From positions 1 through 15,458 of the forward strand of contig PFSX01000072.1 in NCBI GenBank assembly GCA_002789275.1: a stretch of 15,458 nt of DNA. The letters run 5' to 3'. Below are positions 2,676 through 13,286 of the stretch, one piece after another. Both the position numbers and the translations under genes were made by a program. The notes under the pieces are model-generated. The model was given only the letters and a program-made list of their open reading frames with translations. It was not told the DNA's origin and searched no databases. Each line of letters starts with the position of its first letter. Position 1 is the stretch's first letter. This DNA is from Candidatus Huberarchaeum crystalense (GTDB taxonomy: Archaea > Huberarchaeota > Huberarchaeia > Huberarchaeales > Huberarchaeaceae).

Positions 2676-4271
2676 ATGGTCTTTAAATTTAAACAACAAG
2701 CAAAACCACATCCTGTTTGCGAAATGATTGAAAAAATAAGACAAACATTTTTAAAGTTTGGACTTAGTGAAGTTATAAACCCTATGATAATTGAAGAATC
2801 AGAAATTTATAAACAATATGGGCCAGAGGCAGCGGTTATTTTGGACAGATGCTTTTATCTCGCAGAACTTCCGCGACCAGAAATAGGACTTAGTAACAAA
2901 AAACTTGATAAAATAGATAAAATTGCTCCCATGTGGAGAGAAGAAATATGCTCAGAATACAGCAAAAGCAGCTGTTGTTATTGCAGTCAAAATTTGGATA
3001 CAAATTCAGAAACAATTCTTAAAACTCTGTTGCGCGAGTATAAAAAAGGCAATATTGAAGGCGACAATATGCTTGAAGAGATGGTAAAACAACTAAATAT
3101 ATCAGCACAGCAAGCTAGCTGCATTCTTGACGAAGTTTTTACAGAGTTAAAAGAAATCAAACCACAACCAACAACAAAAACACTTCGCTCCCATATGACT
3201 TCTGCGTGGTTTTCTGTTCTTGCAAAAGCACACAAAAAATCAGAAATTCCTATTGGATTTTTTTCAATAGGTCCAAGATTTAGGCGCGAGCAAAAGTTAG
3301 ATGCAACCCATCTTTACGAATCAACAACTGCCTCAGCAGTTGTGATGGCTCAAGAATTTTCAGAGACAGAAATTTTTAGTTTTGTAGAAAAGTTATGCAA
3401 TAATTTGGGTTTCAAAAAAATAAATATTATCAGAAAAAAAGCAACAGCTCAATATTATGAAAACAACAAAGAATGGGAGGTTTATGCTTTGATAAACGGC
3501 AATGATGTTGAAATTGCTGACTTTGGTTTGTACTCAAAAAGAGCATTAAAGAGTTATAAGATAACTCACTCTGTTTTTAATATAGGATTTGGAGTAGAGC
3601 GACTTGCAATGCTATCAACAAAAAACAATGACATAAGAAATCTTGTTTATTGGCATATGCAAGAAGGCGTTTCTTTTTCAGACAAAGAACTCATAAAACA
3701 AATTGAAATAATTGAGAAACCTAACACAGAACAAGGATTAAAACTCAAAGAATTAATTGCAAAAACCGCAAAAAAATATGCTTTTGAAAAATCACCTTGT
3801 AGATTTAATGTGTTTGAGGACAAGTTTTTAGGAAAAAAGATAAAGGTCTCTGTTGTTGAAAAAGAAGAAAACACAAAATTGCTCGGTCCTGCCTGTTTAA
3901 ATAACATTTATGCGTTTGAGGGCAGCATATATGGCATTCCTCCTAAAAATTCATTTAAAGGAACAAACAACATAAAGAACAAGGGAATCAAAGCAAACTT
4001 TAATTTTTTAGACGCTATTTCCTCTTATTTTGCGGCAAAAATAGAAGAGCGAGTTTTGCAAGAGTTAAAAAAGACCGATTTACCAAAAGCAAATGACAAA
4101 TATGGCAAAAACAACAAGAAAACAAACTTTTGGCAGTTAAAAATGGCAAAAACACCTGCAGAAGTCAATATAAAAATAAGCGAGCCAGCAAACAGATTTA
4201 TTACCTCTAACAACAAAAAAATAATGCTTAGAGGGCCAATTTTTATGGGTATTGAATTAAAAATAGAGTAA
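2676..4271 (+). CDS. sepS: O-phosphoseryl-tRNA(Cys) synthetase (SepRS)
   Basis: A class II aminoacyl-tRNA synthetase that attaches O-phosphoserine to tRNA-Cys, the first step of tRNA-dependent cysteine synthesis. It has 531 residues. Recognisable family blocks, from memory of methanogen SepRS: KPHPV at 10-14, NPMIIEESEIYKQYGPEA at 35-52, DRCFYLAELPRPEIGL at 57-72, RSHMTSAWF at 171-179, motif 2 SIGPRFRREQ at 197-206, and motif 3 GFGVERLAML at 304-313. The C-terminal anticodon-binding part includes LLGPACLNNIYAFEGSIYGI and ends RGPIFMGIELKIE. Two oddities: the protein starts only ten residues before KPHPV, so about 35 N-terminal residues of methanogen enzymes are absent (an in-frame stop at 2634 rules out a longer start), and an insertion of roughly 20 residues around 84-112 carries four cysteines (C92, C100, C101, C103). 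It converges with SepCysS and tRNA-Cys. Confidence 0.95.
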   Translation: MVFKFKQQAKPHPVCEMIEKIRQTFLKFGLSEVINPMIIEESEIYKQYGPEAAVILDRCFYLAELPRPEIGLSNKKLDKIDKIAPMWREEICSEYSKSSCCYCSQNLDTNSETILKTLLREYKKGNIEGDNMLEEMVKQLNISAQQASCILDEVFTELKEIKPQPTTKTLRSHMTSAWFSVLAKAHKKSEIPIGFFSIGPRFRREQKLDATHLYESTTASAVVMAQEFSETEIFSFVEKLCNNLGFKKINIIRKKATAQYYENNKEWEVYALINGNDVEIADFGLYSKRALKSYKITHSVFNIGFGVERLAMLSTKNNDIRNLVYWHMQEGVSFSDKELIKQIEIIEKPNTEQGLKLKELIAKTAKKYAFEKSPCRFNVFEDKFLGKKIKVSVVEKEENTKLLGPACLNNIYAFEGSIYGIPPKNSFKGTNNIKNKGIKANFNFLDAISSYFAAKIEERVLQELKKTDLPKANDKYGKNNKKTNFWQLKMAKTPAEVNIKISEPANRFITSNNKKIMLRGPIFMGIELKIE

Positions 4272-4355
4272 ATAATAATACCAAATAATTATTAATTATT
4301 GTTACTCAGTTACTCATAATTAAAGAAGTTAGATTTGCTAACTATTATTAGTATT

Positions 4356-4460
4356 GATATTATTTATTAAAACAAATAAGTATTAACAAGGATATTATTT
4401 ATTAAAACAAATAAGTATTAACAAGGATATTATTTATTAAAACAAATAAGTATTAACAAA
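4356..4460 (+). repeat. Three tandem 35-base repeats containing TATA-like boxes, upstream of the scaffold gene
   Basis: Copies start at 4356, 4391 and 4426 and are identical except for the last base of the third. Each contains TATTTATTAAAA and ends in TATTAACAAG. The array stops five bases before the ATG of the IscU-like gene. There are no unique spacers, so it is not a CRISPR array. The duplication multiplies a promoter-like element. Confidence 0.9.
4431..4442 (+). promoter_or_regulatory. Probable TATA box of the IscU/NifU-like gene (third repeat copy)
   Basis: TATTTATTAAAA in the third repeat copy is centred 29-30 bases before the ATG at 4466, which fits an almost leaderless transcript. 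Identical boxes sit 35 and 70 bases further upstream and could drive transcripts with longer leaders. Confidence 0.5.
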
Positions 4461-4465
4461 AAGTT

Positions 4466-4894
4466 ATGCACAATAAGACACTTTTATCTCACTTTTTTCA
4501 CCCAAAAAATATGGGAAAAATGAAAAAACCAAGTGGATATGGGCGCGCAGGAAACCCTGTTTGCGGCGATATAATGGATTTTTATTTGAAAATAAAAGAT
4601 GAAAAAAGTAAAGCAATCATTAAAGATGTCAAGTGGGAAACCTTAGGATGTCCTGTTGCATTGGCTAATAGTTCAGTTCTTAGTGAAATGGTAAAAGGAA
4701 AGGCACTAAAAGATGCTGAAAAAATTACGCAGAAACAAATTATTAAAAAGCTCGGCGGCGAAATTCCCCATCAAAAACTTCATTGTTCAATGCTGGCACT
4801 TGATGCTTTTCATCAGGCTATTAACTATTATAAAAAGAAAAGGAAGATTATTGAACTTAAAACAAAACCAAAAACCAAGCATAACTTCAATTAA
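4466..4894 (+). CDS. iscU: Fe-S cluster assembly scaffold, IscU/NifU N-terminal type
   Basis: A U-type scaffold on which sulfur from a cysteine desulfurase and iron are assembled into Fe-S clusters. It has 142 residues. All three ligand cysteines are present: C33 with D35 in AGNPVCGD, C62 in TLGCPVALANSS, and C107 in HQKLHCSMLA. The N-terminal helix HFFHPKNMGKM and the final basic tail are typical or unremarkable. The usual GCGAAIA is GCPVALA here, a mild departure seen next to the second ligand. The tail of about 20 Lys-rich residues is extra. The gene follows SepRS on the same strand after a gap of 194 bases with its own repeated promoter. Given its neighbours it may serve SepCysS, whose methanogen relative has been shown to carry an Fe-S cluster, but it could equally be the general scaffold of the cell. 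Confidence 0.9.
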   Translation: MHNKTLLSHFFHPKNMGKMKKPSGYGRAGNPVCGDIMDFYLKIKDEKSKAIIKDVKWETLGCPVALANSSVLSEMVKGKALKDAEKITQKQIIKKLGGEIPHQKLHCSMLALDAFHQAINYYKKKRKIIELKTKPKTKHNFN

Positions 4895-5050
4895 ATCCAA
4901 TATTATAACAAAATCACTAAATGCAAATTATTCTTAACTTAAATAAATATATAGATTATTAACTAACTTAACACTTGTTTTTTTTAATAAAAGTGCGCAA
5001 ACCTTTTTATATAATTGCTTGTTTTTACAAACAAATCATCTGATAAATGC
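4895..5050. other. Convergent intergenic region, no gene seen
   Basis: AT-rich sequence between the convergent scaffold gene and tRNA-Cys. It contains a perfect 6-base inverted repeat TTGTTT/AAACAA at 5019-5034, which may aid termination. No open frame worth calling. Confidence 0.4.
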
Positions 5051-5081
5051 TTGGTTAATTTATTTTATAAAAATAAACCAA
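5051..5081 (-). terminator. Inverted repeat downstream of tRNA-Cys, possible terminator
   Basis: TTGGTT and AACCAA, extended by TTTATTTT/AAAATAAA, form an almost perfect palindrome 10 bases beyond the tRNA 3' end. Its position suits termination or 3' processing of the tRNA transcript. The high AT content makes a chance palindrome more likely than usual. Confidence 0.4.
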
Positions 5082-5091
5082 ATTCTAAAAA

Positions 5092-5162
5092 AGTAGGGGA
5101 AGAGAGTCGAACTCTTTTAAACCGGTCTGCAGCCGGACGCGTGGCCGTTCCGCCACCCCTAC
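5092..5162 (-). tRNA. tRNA-Cys (anticodon GCA)
   Basis: The minus strand folds as a full cloverleaf of 71 bases. The acceptor GTAGGGG pairs with CCCCTAC over all seven positions. The D arm is a 3-bp stem (GCG/CGC). The anticodon stem TCCGG/CCGGT has one T-T mismatch at its outer pair. The anticodon loop CTGCAGA gives GCA, so Cys. The T arm is AAGAG/CTCTT with loop TTCGACT. The discriminator base is T (U73) and position 37 is G; the GCA anticodon, U73 and G37 are known identity elements for SepRS. CCA is not encoded. The gene lies 24 bases downstream of the SepCysS stop on the same strand, so it is either co-transcribed or uses an AT-rich promoter overlapping that stop (about 5184-5198). Confidence 0.95.
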
Positions 5163-5186
5163 ATAAATTTTTAAAAAATTTATAGT

Positions 5187-6395
<1,209 letters not shown>

Positions 6396-6400
6396 TTACT

Positions 6401-6409
6401 TATTAATTT
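6401..6409 (-). promoter_or_regulatory. Probable TATA box of SepCysS
   Basis: On the minus strand AAATTAATA is centred about 25 bases upstream of the SepCysS ATG, in the 103-base gap after DedA. It implies that SepCysS, perhaps with tRNA-Cys, can be transcribed on its own. AT-rich context weakens the call. Confidence 0.45.
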
Positions 6410-6483
6410 GTGGAGTTGTATTATTTTTAGTGTTATTTTTTAATTTCTGTTTTTTATTTGTTTCTTTTTGCTTTTTTGCTTAA

Positions 6484-7083
6484 TTAATGTTTTGTGTGTG
6501 AATATAAAAAATAAGCAATTACAACCACAAATCCAAGAATTATAATTATATCTATAATCTGACTGTATTTGATAATTTCTGACCAATTGTTTTTCAATGA
6601 AAATCCAATATATACTAAAAAGGTGTTCCAAATTCCTGCTCCAATTATAGTAAAAACTGAAAATTTTAACAGATTCATTTTTCCAATTCCTGCAGGTATT
6701 GAAATAAAATGACGAACAACAGGAATAAATCCGCCAACAAAAACAGTTATTTCGCCGTGCTTTTTAAAAAATGTTTCGGTTAGATTGAGGTGGTGGTTGT
6801 TAAGAAAAACATACTTGCCGAATCGTTTTATAAAATGCCTTCCACCAAAAGCGCCAATATAATATGAAATCAAAGAGCCAATTAAACTTCCAAGTGTGCT
6901 AAAAAATACAACTCCTATAAAGGAAAATTTTTCGTGCGCAATCAAAAATCCAGCAAAAGGCAGAACTGCCTCGCTTGGAACAGGAAAAATCGTACCTTCC
7001 ATTGCCATCAAAACAACAAGGCCTGCATAGCCTGCGCCTGCTATAAAATTTACAATACTTTCTACTAATATCTCTGTTAACAT
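6484..7083 (-). CDS. DedA-family (SNARE-associated) membrane protein
   Basis: An integral membrane protein of 199 residues, normal for DedA. Family motifs: an acidic residue in MAMEGTIFPVPSEAVLP (28-42), a Gly-rich reentrant region with GSLIGSLISYYIGAFGGR (65-82), and GGFIPVVRHFISIPAG (117-132) with the conserved arginine R124. There are hydrophobic segments at roughly 15-50, 55-78, 112-130, 138-162 and 176-194. Bacterial DedA proteins are linked to membrane lipid-carrier or phospholipid flipping and proton-motive homeostasis; the archaeal role is not known. It sits between the cysteine desulfurase and SepCysS on the same strand, but the gaps (157 and 103 bases) leave room for separate promoters, so a functional link to cysteine synthesis is not shown. 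Confidence 0.88.
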   Translation of the reverse strand: MLTEILVESIVNFIAGAGYAGLVVLMAMEGTIFPVPSEAVLPFAGFLIAHEKFSFIGVVFFSTLGSLIGSLISYYIGAFGGRHFIKRFGKYVFLNNHHLNLTETFFKKHGEITVFVGGFIPVVRHFISIPAGIGKMNLLKFSVFTIIGAGIWNTFLVYIGFSLKNNWSEIIKYSQIIDIIIILGFVVVIAYFLYSHTKH

Positions 7084-7101
7084 ATTTTTATTTGAATATA
7101 T

Positions 7102-7196
7102 TTTTTTAGATTAACAATTACCCCCTATTATTTTTCATATTTATGTTTGCTCTTTTTTAGATTAACAATTATATCCATCTATTATTTTTTATATTA
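7102..7196. repeat. Imperfect 51-base tandem repeat between DedA and the cysteine desulfurase
   Basis: TTTTTTAGATTAACAATTA occurs at 7102-7120 and 7153-7171, followed in both by a similar CTATTATTTTT-ATATT stretch with a two-base indel. The repeat lies in the region that must hold the DedA promoter on the minus strand. Confidence 0.7.
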
Positions 7197-7240
7197 ATTT
7201 TTATATCTTATTTTTTATAATATATTTATTTATAATTTAC

Positions 7241-8386
7241 CTATTTAAGTGGGCTTATATTTCTCAATTTTTCAATAAATTTTGGCAAAACGCTTAAAAA
7301 ATAATCTATTTCTTTGTTTGTTGTGTATTTGCTTATTGTAATGCGAAGCGATCCGTGAGTTTGCTCTGGACTTAAACCAAGCGCGCGCAAAACATGGCTT
7401 GGTTCTAATGATTTTGAAGCACAAGCAGAACCAGTTGAAACAGCAATTCCTAAATTATCTAAATGCATTAGCAATGACTCGCCTTCAATCTTGTCAAATC
7501 GCACATTTATGTTGTTGCATGCTCGTTGCGTCAACGACCCGTTTAAATGACTGCCTTTGATTTTTAAGATTTCTTTTATTGTTTTGTTTCGAATTTCTGT
7601 CATTTTTTTAATATCTTCTGGCTTTATAACATCAACTGCTGCGCCAAAACCAATAATTCCGGGAATATTTTGAGTGCCCCCTCGCAGACCATCTTCCTGC
7701 CCCCCACCATGCACCCATGGCTCGATTTTTACGTTGTTTTGAATATAAAGTGCTGCAACTCCTTTTGGCCCATGAATTTTGTGCGCACTTATTGTAACTA
7801 AATCTAAAAAATATTTGTCAACATTGAGAGGAACTTTTGTAAAACTTTGGCATGCGTCTGTGTGAAAATAAATTCCTTTTTCACGGCAAATTTTTCCAAT
7901 CTCACAAATCGGCTGTATTGTTCCAATTTCATTATTTACATGCATAACTGAAACCAAAATTGTATCTTTGCGAATAGCTTTTTTTAGCGCGCCAACATCA
8001 ACAATTCCTTCTTTGTTAACATCCAAATAAGTTATTTCAAACCCTTGTTTTTCTAACCATTTGCAACTTTCAAGCACGCAACTATGCTCTATTTTAGATG
8101 TGATAATGTGTTTCCCTTTGTTGCGATTAGCAAAGGCAACTCCTTTAATTGCGAGATTGTTTGATTCAGAACCGCAACCAGTAAAGACCAAAATACCTCT
8201 TTTAGCACCCAATTTTTCTAAAATGCGTTTGCGCACCATTTCAATTGCCTTTGCTGGCTCTCTTCCAAACAGATGAATGGAGTTAGGATTTCCAAATTTT
8301 TTAGTTAAATATGGCTTCATTGCTTTCAAAACTTCAGGTGCAATTTGCGTTGTTGCTCCATTATCTAAATAAATAGTGTTAGTCAT
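7241..8386 (-). CDS. iscS: Cysteine desulfurase, NifS/IscS class
   Basis: A PLP enzyme that takes sulfur from cysteine as a protein persulfide for Fe-S clusters and thio-modifications. It has 381 residues. Visible motifs: YLDNGATT at 6-13, GNPNSIHLFGRE at 32-43, TGCGSESNN at 69-77, H101 that stacks on PLP, HTDACQS at 175-181, the PLP lysine K203 in SAHKIHGPKG, and the catalytic loop cysteine C322 in STGSACASKSLEPSHVL. The GSAC pattern and short loop place it in the NifS/IscS group. In this locus it could feed sulfur to SepCysS or to the IscU-like scaffold. A circularity is worth noting: it uses free cysteine, which the cell would have to obtain from outside or by protein turnover if it makes cysteine only on tRNA. 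It is divergent from the next gene with only 26 bases between the annotated starts. Confidence 0.93.
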   Translation of the reverse strand: MTNTIYLDNGATTQIAPEVLKAMKPYLTKKFGNPNSIHLFGREPAKAIEMVRKRILEKLGAKRGILVFTGCGSESNNLAIKGVAFANRNKGKHIITSKIEHSCVLESCKWLEKQGFEITYLDVNKEGIVDVGALKKAIRKDTILVSVMHVNNEIGTIQPICEIGKICREKGIYFHTDACQSFTKVPLNVDKYFLDLVTISAHKIHGPKGVAALYIQNNVKIEPWVHGGGQEDGLRGGTQNIPGIIGFGAAVDVIKPEDIKKMTEIRNKTIKEILKIKGSHLNGSLTQRACNNINVRFDKIEGESLLMHLDNLGIAVSTGSACASKSLEPSHVLRALGLSPEQTHGSLRITISKYTTNKEIDYFLSVLPKFIEKLRNISPLK

Positions 8387-8412: not shown

Positions 8413-8985
8413 GTGCTGGGTTGCTCTTTTTCTTTTAAATATATTATAAATATTATAGATAAACATAAACTTACTGATGTTGAACAATTTATCAAAAAAT
8501 TCCACGAAGACAAAAAGCAAAACAAACTCGATTTATCCCTTGATGAAGATTTATCAATAGCAATTATGAATCTGGTGAGTATTGAAGAACACTTCTTTTT
8601 TACAGCTGAAAAAACAAAGAAAAGAAAGTACTTTGATTTGCTGAAAGAGGTGCGCGAAATGCGAAAGAGCTTGTTGAAAAAAATTGTAAAAAATCAAGAA
8701 GGTGAAATATGGTGCATTTCAAAGCATTTATTAGCATCTTCTATGCGGCTAATGGAAGTAGGGACAAAACTTTTAAAAGAGGACAGAAAAGACGAAGCAT
8801 ATGACTTGTTTGATAACTCATACAAACTTTACACTTTATTTTGGGCATTGAATTTAAAATTAATTGATGTTGGTGAGATAAAGGAACTGCATGGTAGCGC
8901 GCTCAACAAAACAGACAAAAACAAAAGTATTTTTCAGAAAATTGGGAATATTATTGATAAAACATTAGATTGTTGTAAAGAGTAA
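8413..8985 (+). CDS. Conserved-looking helical protein of unknown function
   Basis: 190 residues from a GTG at 8413. I do not assign a function. The central part (about 44-155) looks like a folded helical domain: SIEEHFFFTAEKT at 56-68, YFDLLKEVREMRKSLLKK at 73-90, GEIWCISKHLLASSMRLMEV at 97-116, then a helix-turn-helix-like pair with DEAYDLFDNSYKLYTLFWALNLKL. Glu, His and Cys residues (E58, E59, H60, C101, H105) could form a metal site in a helical bundle, but that is inference. I have an impression of similar proteins in small archaeal and candidate-phyla bacterial genomes. The start is uncertain: there is no ATG until residue 52, and the GTG lies 26 bases from the divergent desulfurase start. 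The last 12 codons belong to a 46-base tandem repeat. Confidence 0.75.
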   Translation: MLGCSFSFKYIINIIDKHKLTDVEQFIKKFHEDKKQNKLDLSLDEDLSIAIMNLVSIEEHFFFTAEKTKKRKYFDLLKEVREMRKSLLKKIVKNQEGEIWCISKHLLASSMRLMEVGTKLLKEDRKDEAYDLFDNSYKLYTLFWALNLKLIDVGEIKELHGSALNKTDKNKSIFQKIGNIIDKTLDCCKE

Positions 8986-9070
8986 ATTTTTAGATATTAT
9001 TGATAAAACATTAGATTGTTGTAAAGAGTAAATTTTTAGATATTATTGATAAAACATTAGATTGTTGTAA
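8948..9070 (+). repeat. 46-base tandem repeat copying the end of the preceding gene
   Basis: Copies begin at 8948, 8994 and 9040; the third breaks off at about 9070. The first copy encodes the end of the helical protein (NIIDKTLDCCKE and stop). The others repeat this coding sequence downstream as non-coding sequence. Copies are near-identical, so the event is recent. No unique spacers, so not CRISPR. Confidence 0.9.
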
Positions 9071-12503: not shown

Positions 12504-13286
12504 ATGGCCAAAACAATGTCTTTTTCAAAAAACCAAGGAAAATATTCAAAAGTCACTAAAAAACCAAAACCTGAAAAACAAGAATTAAGAAAAGATATTG
12601 GAAAAATAAAACCTGAAAAACAAGAATTAAGAAAAGATATTGGAAAAATAAAACCTGAAAAACAAGAATTAAGAAAAATGACTAAAAAATCAACTGCAAA
12701 AATTGTTTTAAAAAAAGAAATATTGCAGCCAGAAACTTATACTTTTCCTAAAAAACATACAAAAACACCTGCTAGTTTAGAAGCATTGAAACACATTAAG
12801 TATTTTTTAAAAAGTGTTTTAGGTGAAGAATGTGCTGATTTTTTATATAAATTAAAATTAGACTTTGTTTATGAAGATTCTTGTTTGAAAGTAGATTATG
12901 AGCGGAGGATAGCTTGTAAGTATTTGTATATTCTTCAAAGCAAAGGAATTGCTGAATATATAAAAAAAGAGCGTGTAGAAGAAAAGGCGAGATTTGATTT
13001 TTTATGGGCAGTTAAAAGCGAGGAAATTTTAAGGCAAACTCATCTGTTTTATGTAAACAAACTTAATAAAATTAATGTAATTTTAGATATTATATCTACA
13101 CAGGAAGCATATGTTGATTCAGCAGAAAAGATTTATAGTTTTGATGAAGCAGTTGAATGCAATTTTGTGGGCGAAGATGGCGCAGAACTAAAGCACTGCA
13201 ATCTTCAAAAGCTACTTAAAGAAAAACACACACTTGAAAGAATTATTACTTCTTTAACAGATGTTCAGATAACTTCGCTTGTTTAA
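12504..13286 (+). CDS. Hypothetical protein with a Lys-rich repeated N-terminus
   Basis: 260 residues; I do not recognise a family. Residues 1-70 are basic and low in complexity, with a 14-residue unit KPEKQELRKDIGKI repeated about 2.6 times (22-58). Residues 85-260 look like a folded, mainly helical domain, with LEALKHIKYFLKSVLGEECADFLYKL, a cluster of charged helices around 150-180, and C-terminal LLKEKHTLERIITSL. There is no signal peptide or membrane segment. The basic repeat could bind nucleic acid, which would suit a place 79 bases behind SBDS on the same strand, but this is inference from composition. TTATATTAAA at 12481-12490 may be a promoter, although it is only about 18 bases from the ATG. 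Confidence 0.7.
   Translation: MAKTMSFSKNQGKYSKVTKKPKPEKQELRKDIGKIKPEKQELRKDIGKIKPEKQELRKMTKKSTAKIVLKKEILQPETYTFPKKHTKTPASLEALKHIKYFLKSVLGEECADFLYKLKLDFVYEDSCLKVDYERRIACKYLYILQSKGIAEYIKKERVEEKARFDFLWAVKSEEILRQTHLFYVNKLNKINVILDIISTQEAYVDSAEKIYSFDEAVECNFVGEDGAELKHCNLQKLLKEKHTLERIITSLTDVQITSLV
12567..12677 (+). repeat. In-frame 42-base tandem repeat inside the hypothetical gene
   Basis: Units begin at 12567, 12609 and 12651 and are essentially identical at the DNA level; the third is partial. They encode the 14-residue KPEKQELRKDIGKI unit. The near identity of codons points to recent expansion. Confidence 0.9.

Follow-up and report, generated by a model that had tools for sequence, protein, structure and literature searches.

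The window analysed here, a 15,458-nucleotide stretch from Candidatus Huberarchaeum crystalense, was found to carry an indirect Cys-tRNA locus of six genes between positions 2676 and 8386, comprising SepRS (O-phosphoserine--tRNA ligase), an IscU-type scaffold, tRNA-Cys(GCA), SepCysS, a DedA protein and a NifS/IscS desulfurase. An earlier note on this DNA had reported SepRS, SepCysS, tRNA-Cys and a NifS-IscU pair as co-located, and all six genes were recovered at the positions it gave. SepRS and IscU read forward and face tRNA-Cys, SepCysS, DedA and NifS on the reverse strand; because these two gene sets converge, the locus is not one operon, and a single compact operon for the six genes was ruled out. 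SepRS and SepCysS themselves lie convergently on opposite strands, where a single-transcript SepRS-SepCysS operon would have them co-directional and adjacent. Three perfect 35-bp tandem repeats (4356..4459, no strand; TRF 100% match, also read in the sequence) lie between SepRS and IscU. The DedA/VTT membrane protein (6484-7083, reverse strand), which is UptA-like (PF09335 76.1 bits; NF052604 172.7 bits, below the cut-off of 250), is probably a bystander.

The SepRS gene (2676-4271, forward strand) encodes a 531 aa protein with a TIGR00470 score of 444.2 bits (cut-off 380.65), which aligned over most of its length with the solved Archaeoglobus fulgidus SepRS (2du3). An AlphaFold2 model of the protein (mean pLDDT 89.7) gave 2du3_A as its best fold match. 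The two proteins have the fold and the aligned residues in common, whereas the window SepRS is without the N-terminal ~40 residues (the first ~40 model positions) and bears an insert of 20 residues (87-106) that includes Cys92, 100, 101 and 103, together with an additional insert near 470-480. The Cys-rich insert was missing from 91/91 other aligned SepRS and is thus unique among the 92 sequences. An ordered metal site formed by these four cysteines was considered and set aside, as the insert is predicted to be disordered in the AlphaFold2 model, where residues 95-108 fall below a pLDDT of 50. The published SepRS N-x-G motif is kept as N302-I-G304, and S172, H173, T175 and S220 were invariant across 42 sequences; which of these residues, N302 and G304 included, line the O-phosphoserine (Sep) pocket is our presumption.

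SepCysS (397 aa; 5187-6380, reverse strand) scored 544.5 bits with TIGR02539 (cut-off 365.25) and aligned over most of its length with the solved SepCysS of A. fulgidus (2e7i), sharing with it the aligned residues and the conserved cysteines and differing in the CxxCxxC of the window protein. Among 48 aligned SepCysS, the PLP lysine, Lys235, was conserved in 48, Cys65 and Cys68 (followed in the window protein by Cys71) in 45 and Cys273 in 47; the roles that we give to these Cys and Lys residues are in part assumed. The available text of PMC5424206 presents SepCysS as an Fe-S protein with a presumed persulfide mechanism, the exact course of the persulfide attack being described as not fully elucidated. 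The tRNA-Cys(GCA) gene (ARAGORN; 5092-5162, reverse strand) lies 24 nt downstream of SepCysS on the same strand and is followed by a T-run when the sequence is read. Reading the tRNA by eye, we found G1-C72, G37 and U73, which are named as SepRS identity elements in the text seen of PMC9499178.

Scaffolds of the IscU/NifU_N type hold three ligand cysteines. The IscU/NifU_N-type Fe-S scaffold of the locus (142 aa; 4466-4894, forward strand; Pfam NifU_N PF01592 127.6 bits, cut-off 22) has Cys33, Cys62 and Cys107 as its sole cysteines; it aligned with solved IscU/NifU proteins and scored under the equivalog cut-offs of both IscU (TIGR01999, 109.6 versus 192.4) and NifU (TIGR03419, 138.3 versus 187.9). 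The NifS/IscS-type cysteine desulfurase (381 aa; 7241-8386, reverse strand; Aminotran_5 PF00266 270.4 bits), with Lys203 and Cys322, passed the IscS subfamily NF002806 (309.1, cut-off 304) and fell below the NifS equivalog TIGR03402 (505.6, cut-off 530.75). Its nearest solved chains were 4r5f and 4eb5, the latter an IscS-IscU entry that we take to be from A. fulgidus. The window desulfurase is close to the desulfurase chain of 4eb5 and the scaffold to its NifU chain; what sets the window pair apart is its position near SepCysS and SepRS.

The genome available comprises 500 kb in 74 contigs and is nominally 75% complete, so any absence from it may be a gap. Forty tRNAs over cut-off covered all 20 amino acids, with one tRNA-Cys only and no second copy. 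CysRS was not found in the genome available, the best score being 38.5 bits (cut-off 340) within a frame of 1061 aa, in which PF01406 also gave one partial match (31.2 bits, over the Pfam cut-off of 27). These side matches of PF01406 and TIGR00435 were partial, came from two frames (1061 and 829 aa) that resemble class I synthetases, and were rejected as CysRS candidates. An ordinary CysRS alongside another tRNA-Cys elsewhere was among the findings that, by the earlier note, would undo its reading, and neither gene was seen in the genome portion available; Cys-tRNA is therefore probably made in this cell by the indirect route alone. A normal CysRS and its own tRNA-Cys could instead lie in sequence missing from the assembly, with SepRS and SepCysS as a parallel second route, as in archaeon G093, which bears CysRS and two tRNA-Cys genes. 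The completeness of 75% leaves room for this, and 30 of 63 SepRS-family genomes have CysRS over cut-off, but the other 33 likewise have none, the tRNA set here spans all 20 amino acids and its lone tRNA-Cys adjoins SepCysS, and we consider a hidden CysRS quite unlikely.

Searches of the same available sequence returned no cysteine-synthase (PALP) family member (PF00291), no SerA-type dehydrogenase (PF02826) and no SufB/D (PF01458). A SerC candidate, a side match of PF00266, was rejected as a class I aminotransferase-like frame; the multi-domain frame beside it looked, on inspection by eye, like prephenate dehydrogenase/chorismate mutase/prephenate dehydratase. Since neither the SerA-type nor the cysteine-synthase family was found, the description of the locus in the earlier note as a self-contained module is not supported, and Sep (or serine and a kinase) together with a sulfur source would probably be obtained externally, perhaps from a host. 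NifU_N and the NifS-type desulfurase are each single-copy in the genome available, where no second member of either was found; for this reason, and as no SufB/D was found, general Fe-S assembly probably falls to this pair in any case.

To set the locus against its relatives, we compared neighbourhoods across the SepRS-family genomes. NifU_N lay within 1 kb of SepRS in two of the 37 such genomes with NifU_N (this genome and G093) against 0.095 expected (P 0.004), a value that includes the window, which was itself picked out in a search for clusters of this kind; with the window set aside, the count was 1/36 and not significant (P 0.086). Within 10 kb the count was 3/37 against 0.81 expected (P 0.049), or 2 against 0.77 with the window set aside (P 0.18). 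NifS abuts SepCysS in three genomes (G226, G034 and G076) of one Altiarchaeota family, which probably count as one case. These counts bear on the simpler view that SepRS, SepCysS and tRNA-Cys form a known pathway cluster with NifS, IscU and DedA as chance neighbours and NifS-IscU as the general Fe-S system. The 10-kb counts, the single-copy state of the pair and the apparently unrelated DedA gene between NifS and SepCysS all fit this view, whereas the 1-kb excess and the adjoining NifS and SepCysS genes of the Altiarchaeota family argue against it; we regard it as a real possibility, though not the probable one.

A close counterpart was the island of G093 (loci L091 and L258), where SepRS, IscU, NifS, SepCysS and tRNA-Cys, the same five components, are grouped within about 9 kb. 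Its gene order differs, it has extra SufS-like and aminotransferase genes, and G093 carries CysRS and the second tRNA-Cys besides. SepCysS lay within 10 kb of SepRS in at least 2 of the 46 genomes with both over cut-off, a lower bound because contigs are fragmented, and no SepCysS was seen on the available stretches of the Altiarchaeota loci whose SepRS is nearest. Gene order was not conserved in relatives, and the suggestion of a transferable module is unproven on account of the G093 order, the 2/46 count, the Altiarchaeota loci and the trees described below.

Loci that group SepRS, SepCysS and tRNA-Cys have already been described in DPANN archaea and in bacteria (PMC8762117 and PMC5424206, as far as their available text goes). 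The clusters described there have the same two enzymes, an adjoining tRNA-Cys gene, the same inferred chemistry and a small-genome archaeon in common with ours; the window genes converge instead of forming one operon, and NifS, IscU and DedA lie inside the cluster. NifS, IscS and IscU are absent from the main text of both papers, and the 2017 paper of the two mentions, in the part available, ‘a few sulfur metabolism genes’ beside clade VII SepCysS. Open PubMed Central papers, supplements aside, yielded none that joined SepCysS, a sulfur donor and a cysteine desulfurase; nor did the open papers yield one on Huberarchaeota, Altiarchaeota and cysteine together, or a further one on the phosphoserine source. 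The indirect pathway and the three-gene cluster are known, and the co-located NifS-IscU pair is rare.

Altiarchaeota are the likely hosts of Huberarchaea, and the Huberarchaea genome is ~0.4 Mbp (PMC7414124 and PMC8407392, respectively, in the text available). By sequence identity, SepRS and SepCysS are nearest Altiarchaeota types, more so than an IleRS-like protein, the only control. Mean identity to Altiarchaeota-type versus methanogen-type sequences was 46.5 versus 38.9 for SepRS, 57.8 versus 49.8 for SepCysS and 37.5 versus 36.7 for the IleRS-like control. These means rest on seven Altiarchaeota-type genomes (five for SepCysS) from families f13, f39 and f73, with G171 (f82) counted in by tree place, and on five methanogen-type genomes set by tree position (G045, G002, G182, G216 and G205). 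Length and similarity served to assign the control frames to IleRS, and one of 20 (L287) was dropped as weakly matched. The window branch was 2.88 long for the IleRS-like protein, versus 0.81 for SepRS and 0.42 for SepCysS.

SepRS trees were drawn from 139 distinct sequences (92 in the first, quick tree and 62 in the careful tree), leaving out divergent SepRS-like rows of family f9. The best tree had the window beside the Altiarchaeota clade (support 79/96, not starred), the quick tree placed it elsewhere and the careful tree put it outside a starred 22-row clade containing the Altiarchaeota. Since the nearest SepRS are those of Altiarchaeota, a recent transfer of the gene from the Altiarchaeum lineage was considered. 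It is unsupported given the position outside the starred clade; forcing the window with Altiarchaeum alone was 11.7 log units worse (p 0.134, not rejected). The SepCysS tree joining the window and Altiarchaeum scored equal to the free tree (p 0.51), and SepCysS had the highest GC (0.379) and GC3 (0.307) of the 15 window genes. Acquisition of both enzyme genes at once, and perhaps of the tRNA gene too, from a donor resembling Altiarchaeota (possibly a host) would accord with the identities, the long control branch, the best SepRS tree and the SepCysS tree and composition. The constrained and quick SepRS trees, an ordinary SepRS GC3 (0.265), the lack of SepRS-SepCysS clustering at the Altiarchaeota loci and the single control protein speak against it, and it appears rather doubtful. 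Both enzymes do lean to Altiarchaeota types, but the trees do not settle the shared movement that the earlier note had raised.

We favour, as a fairly likely reading, that a small-genome archaeon uses this locus for indirect Cys charging, probably as its sole route, with NifS-IscU as the sulfur and Fe-S supply, and we infer its activities, sulfur route and functional coupling as follows. SepRS would charge the tRNA-Cys encoded beside SepCysS with Sep, and SepCysS would swap the phosphate for sulfur on the tRNA, giving Cys-tRNA. SepCysS and the rest of the cell would most likely receive persulfide sulfur from NifS and Fe-S clusters from NifS with IscU. The sulfur-supply link from NifS/IscU to SepCysS is plausible but unproven, and the pair may simply be general Fe-S machinery. 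Making Cys-tRNA with the help of a desulfurase that itself uses up cysteine is circular, except where free cysteine is imported or the true donor is sulfide. An extended version appears improbable as a whole: a host-dependent archaeon that no longer has CysRS, cysteine synthase or phosphoserine synthesis and imports phosphoserine and sulfur, with SepRS and SepCysS kept or taken from an Altiarchaeota-like donor and coupled to the sole NifS-IscU, and the SepRS Cys4 insert as a possible metal or Fe-S/sulfur sensor.

With the only NifS-IscU pair detected lying next to SepRS and SepCysS, a sulfur route from NifS to SepCysS can be put to a direct test. Phosphoserine and cysteine synthesis are both apparently missing, which raises the question of what such a reduced archaeon has to import for its genetic code to stay functional.

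All six features named in the earlier note were present, in the order SepRS (O-phosphoserine--tRNA ligase; 2676-4271, +), IscU-type scaffold (4466-4894, +), tRNA-Cys (5092-5162, -), SepCysS (5187-6380, -), DedA (6484-7083, -) and NifS (7241-8386, -). The cluster thus consists of two converging gene sets, which rules out a single operon, with tRNA-Cys and SepCysS on the same strand and separated by a gap of 24 nt. SepRS and SepCysS passed their curated cut-offs (TIGR00470, 444.2 against 380.65; TIGR02539, 544.5 against 365.25). The scaffold scored over the Pfam NifU_N cut-off and the desulfurase over that of Aminotran_5; neither reached the strict IscU or NifS equivalog cut-offs, so the names are limited here to 'IscU-type' and 'NifS/IscS-type'. 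Perfect tandem repeats were also seen in the window, of 35 bp between SepRS and IscU (4356-4459), 46 bp (8948-9070) and 42 bp (12566-12677), and the ribosomal protein L32e gene (337-710) has a long Lys/Glu-rich tail encoded by an imperfect 72-bp repeat.

The window SepRS could be aligned with A. fulgidus SepRS (2du3), and retained the N-x-G motif (N302, G304) along with other invariant residues. Its model (mean pLDDT 89.7) found 2du3_A as best fold match with a TM-score of 0.62 and an rmsd of 7.8, values which indicate that the domains are placed differently in the two. An insert at residues 87-106 (window 2934-2993), modelled with low confidence, adds 20 residues including Cys92, 100, 101 and 103, and was missing in all 91 other SepRS in an alignment of 92. 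SepCysS was alignable with 2e7i, and its expected functional positions were conserved among 48 aligned sequences (C65 and C68 in 45 each, C273 in 47, K235 in 48). An additional Cys71 creates a CxxCxxC motif found in 4 of the 48 (the window and loci L252, L240 and L239). The tRNA-Cys carries G1-C72, GCA, G37 and U73, the IscU-type protein C33, C62 and C107, and NifS K203 and C322.

When the rest of the genome (G000) was searched, as the earlier note had proposed, neither cysteinyl-tRNA synthetase (CysRS) nor a second tRNA-Cys was found in an assembly of 499,820 bases on 74 contigs that is 75% complete, where every absence may be a gap. The best CysRS match reached 38.5 bits against a cut-off of 340. 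Two partial PF01406 matches were considered as CysRS, one of 31.2 bits in a 1061-aa frame, above the Pfam threshold of 27, and one of 22.6 bits in an 829-aa frame; both frames were read instead as other class I synthetases. Forty tRNAs over cut-off covered 20/20 amino acids, one being tRNA-Cys. This 75% complete genome gave no matches to PF02826 (SerA-type dehydrogenases), PF00291 (cysteine-synthase family) or PF01458 (SufB/D), and a single NifU_N; its class V aminotransferase folds were NifS, SepCysS and a weaker match in a class I-like aminotransferase frame. Elsewhere in this reduced genome (G000:C29, L107:4135-6099) a class I-like aminotransferase adjoins a frame that, by eye, appears to fuse prephenate dehydrogenase, chorismate mutase and prephenate dehydratase, and some amino acid synthesis may therefore have been kept.

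SepRS scored over cut-off in 100 of 297 archaeal genomes, G000 among them as the sole member of its phylum. Further searches covered 63 genomes, in 55 of which SepRS passed its cut-off and in 8 of which the match was weaker or partial; of the 63, 46 had SepCysS and 30 CysRS over cut-off, and 37 NifU_N. SepRS and SepCysS lay within 10 kb in 2/46 (G000, G093) and within 20 kb in 5/46 (also G216, G010, G032), both lower bounds with many contigs short. Among 119 distinct SepRS loci, 47 of them flanked by 6 kb or more on each side, those with a partner within 6 kb numbered 4 for SepCysS (window, L091, L194, L202), 3 for IscU (window, L091, L098) and 5 for a NifS-like protein (window, L091, L095, L098, L185). 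Three genomes (G226, G034, G076), all from a single Altiarchaeota family, have NifS directly next to SepCysS. In G191 (L095:9008-10799), a tRNA-Cys directly after SepRS has A37, against the G37 expected for archaeal SepRS. In G008, where no SepCysS over cut-off was found, a divergent SepRS-like gene lies next to CysRS, IscU, NifS, a SufS-like gene and a gene that by eye resembles cysteine synthase (L098:2041-10752).

A second island, in G093 (L091, 7.8-16.5 kb), an archaeon from a different family, contains SepRS, IscU, NifS, a SufS-like protein, SepCysS and tRNA-Cys. The gene order, which the earlier note had suggested comparing across genomes, differs in this island. G093 also has CysRS and a second tRNA-Cys: on contig G093:C24 (L258:1295-2549, L258:5983-7460) a G37 tRNA-Cys adjoins SepCysS and an A37 tRNA-Cys lies just upstream of CysRS, an arrangement suggestive of two cysteine systems, each paired with its own tRNA, in a single archaeon. 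Across the 37 genomes, NifU_N lay within 1 kb of SepRS twice (0.095 expected, P 0.004), a value that includes the window, itself selected for such clustering. With the window left out, observed and expected counts were 1 and 0.090 within 1 kb (P 0.086), 2 and 0.466 within 6 kb (P 0.080) and 2 and 0.767 within 10 kb (P 0.18); the link of the scaffold to the SepRS neighbourhood is no more than suggestive.

The trees that the earlier note had called for placed both enzymes near Altiarchaeota rows, at a SepRS node that is not starred (79/96, adjoining a 22-row clade containing Altiarchaeota) and within a SepCysS clade whose inner order was unresolved (window with G093, 59/97; with Altiarchaeum, p 0.51). 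Besides the window, that 14-row clade (100/99) takes in rows from the Altiarchaeota families f13 and f73, two genomes of f8, one Parcubacteria record, and G171, G093, G191 and G238. For SepRS, the nearest sequences in the named collection were mostly Altiarchaeota; a tree joining the window to Altiarchaeum alone was not rejected (p 0.134), one joining it to G093 was borderline (p 0.0475), and an earlier, quick tree had placed the window among bacterial, Hadesarchaeal and Asgard rows. On average, identity to the Altiarchaeota-type set and to five methanogen-type genomes (G045, G002, G182, G216, G205) was 46.5 and 38.9 for SepRS, 57.8 and 49.8 for SepCysS, and 37.5 and 36.7 for an IleRS-like control. 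Judged by this single control protein, the sequences would fit a shared Altiarchaeota-like source of both enzymes. SepCysS has the top GC (0.379) and GC3 (0.307) of the 15 window genes; SepRS GC3 (0.265) is inside the 0.157-0.304 range of the ten non-cluster genes. According to PMC7414124, Altiarchaeota are the sister group in 16% of the relationships tallied for the Huberarchaeota clade; if the organism is a Huberarchaeote, transfer from Altiarchaeota would have precedent.

PMC5424206 describes SepRS in four archaeal groups, one of them DPANN, where it was 'rarely found', as well as SepRS-SepCysS operons in bacteria and a compact operon made up of tRNA-Cys, SepCysSn, SepCysS and SepRS; clade VII SepCysS is accompanied there by tRNA-Cys and genes of sulfur metabolism. 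In DPANN, early Euryarchaeota and bacteria, according to PMC8762117, SepRS frequently shares an operon with SepCysS and in some cases with tRNA-Cys; NifS, IscS and IscU find no mention in the main text of either paper. The locus is well supported as the indirect cysteine pathway, an added case of a known system. The earlier note's grouping of SepRS, SepCysS, tRNA-Cys and a NifS-IscU pair held, and its transferable module was not established. SepRS/SepCysS is probably the sole Cys-tRNA route of this reduced archaeon; its genes lie beside the only NifS-IscU pair found in the genome, a neighbourhood that is rare, and functional coupling of that pair to SepRS/SepCysS is plausible and testable.
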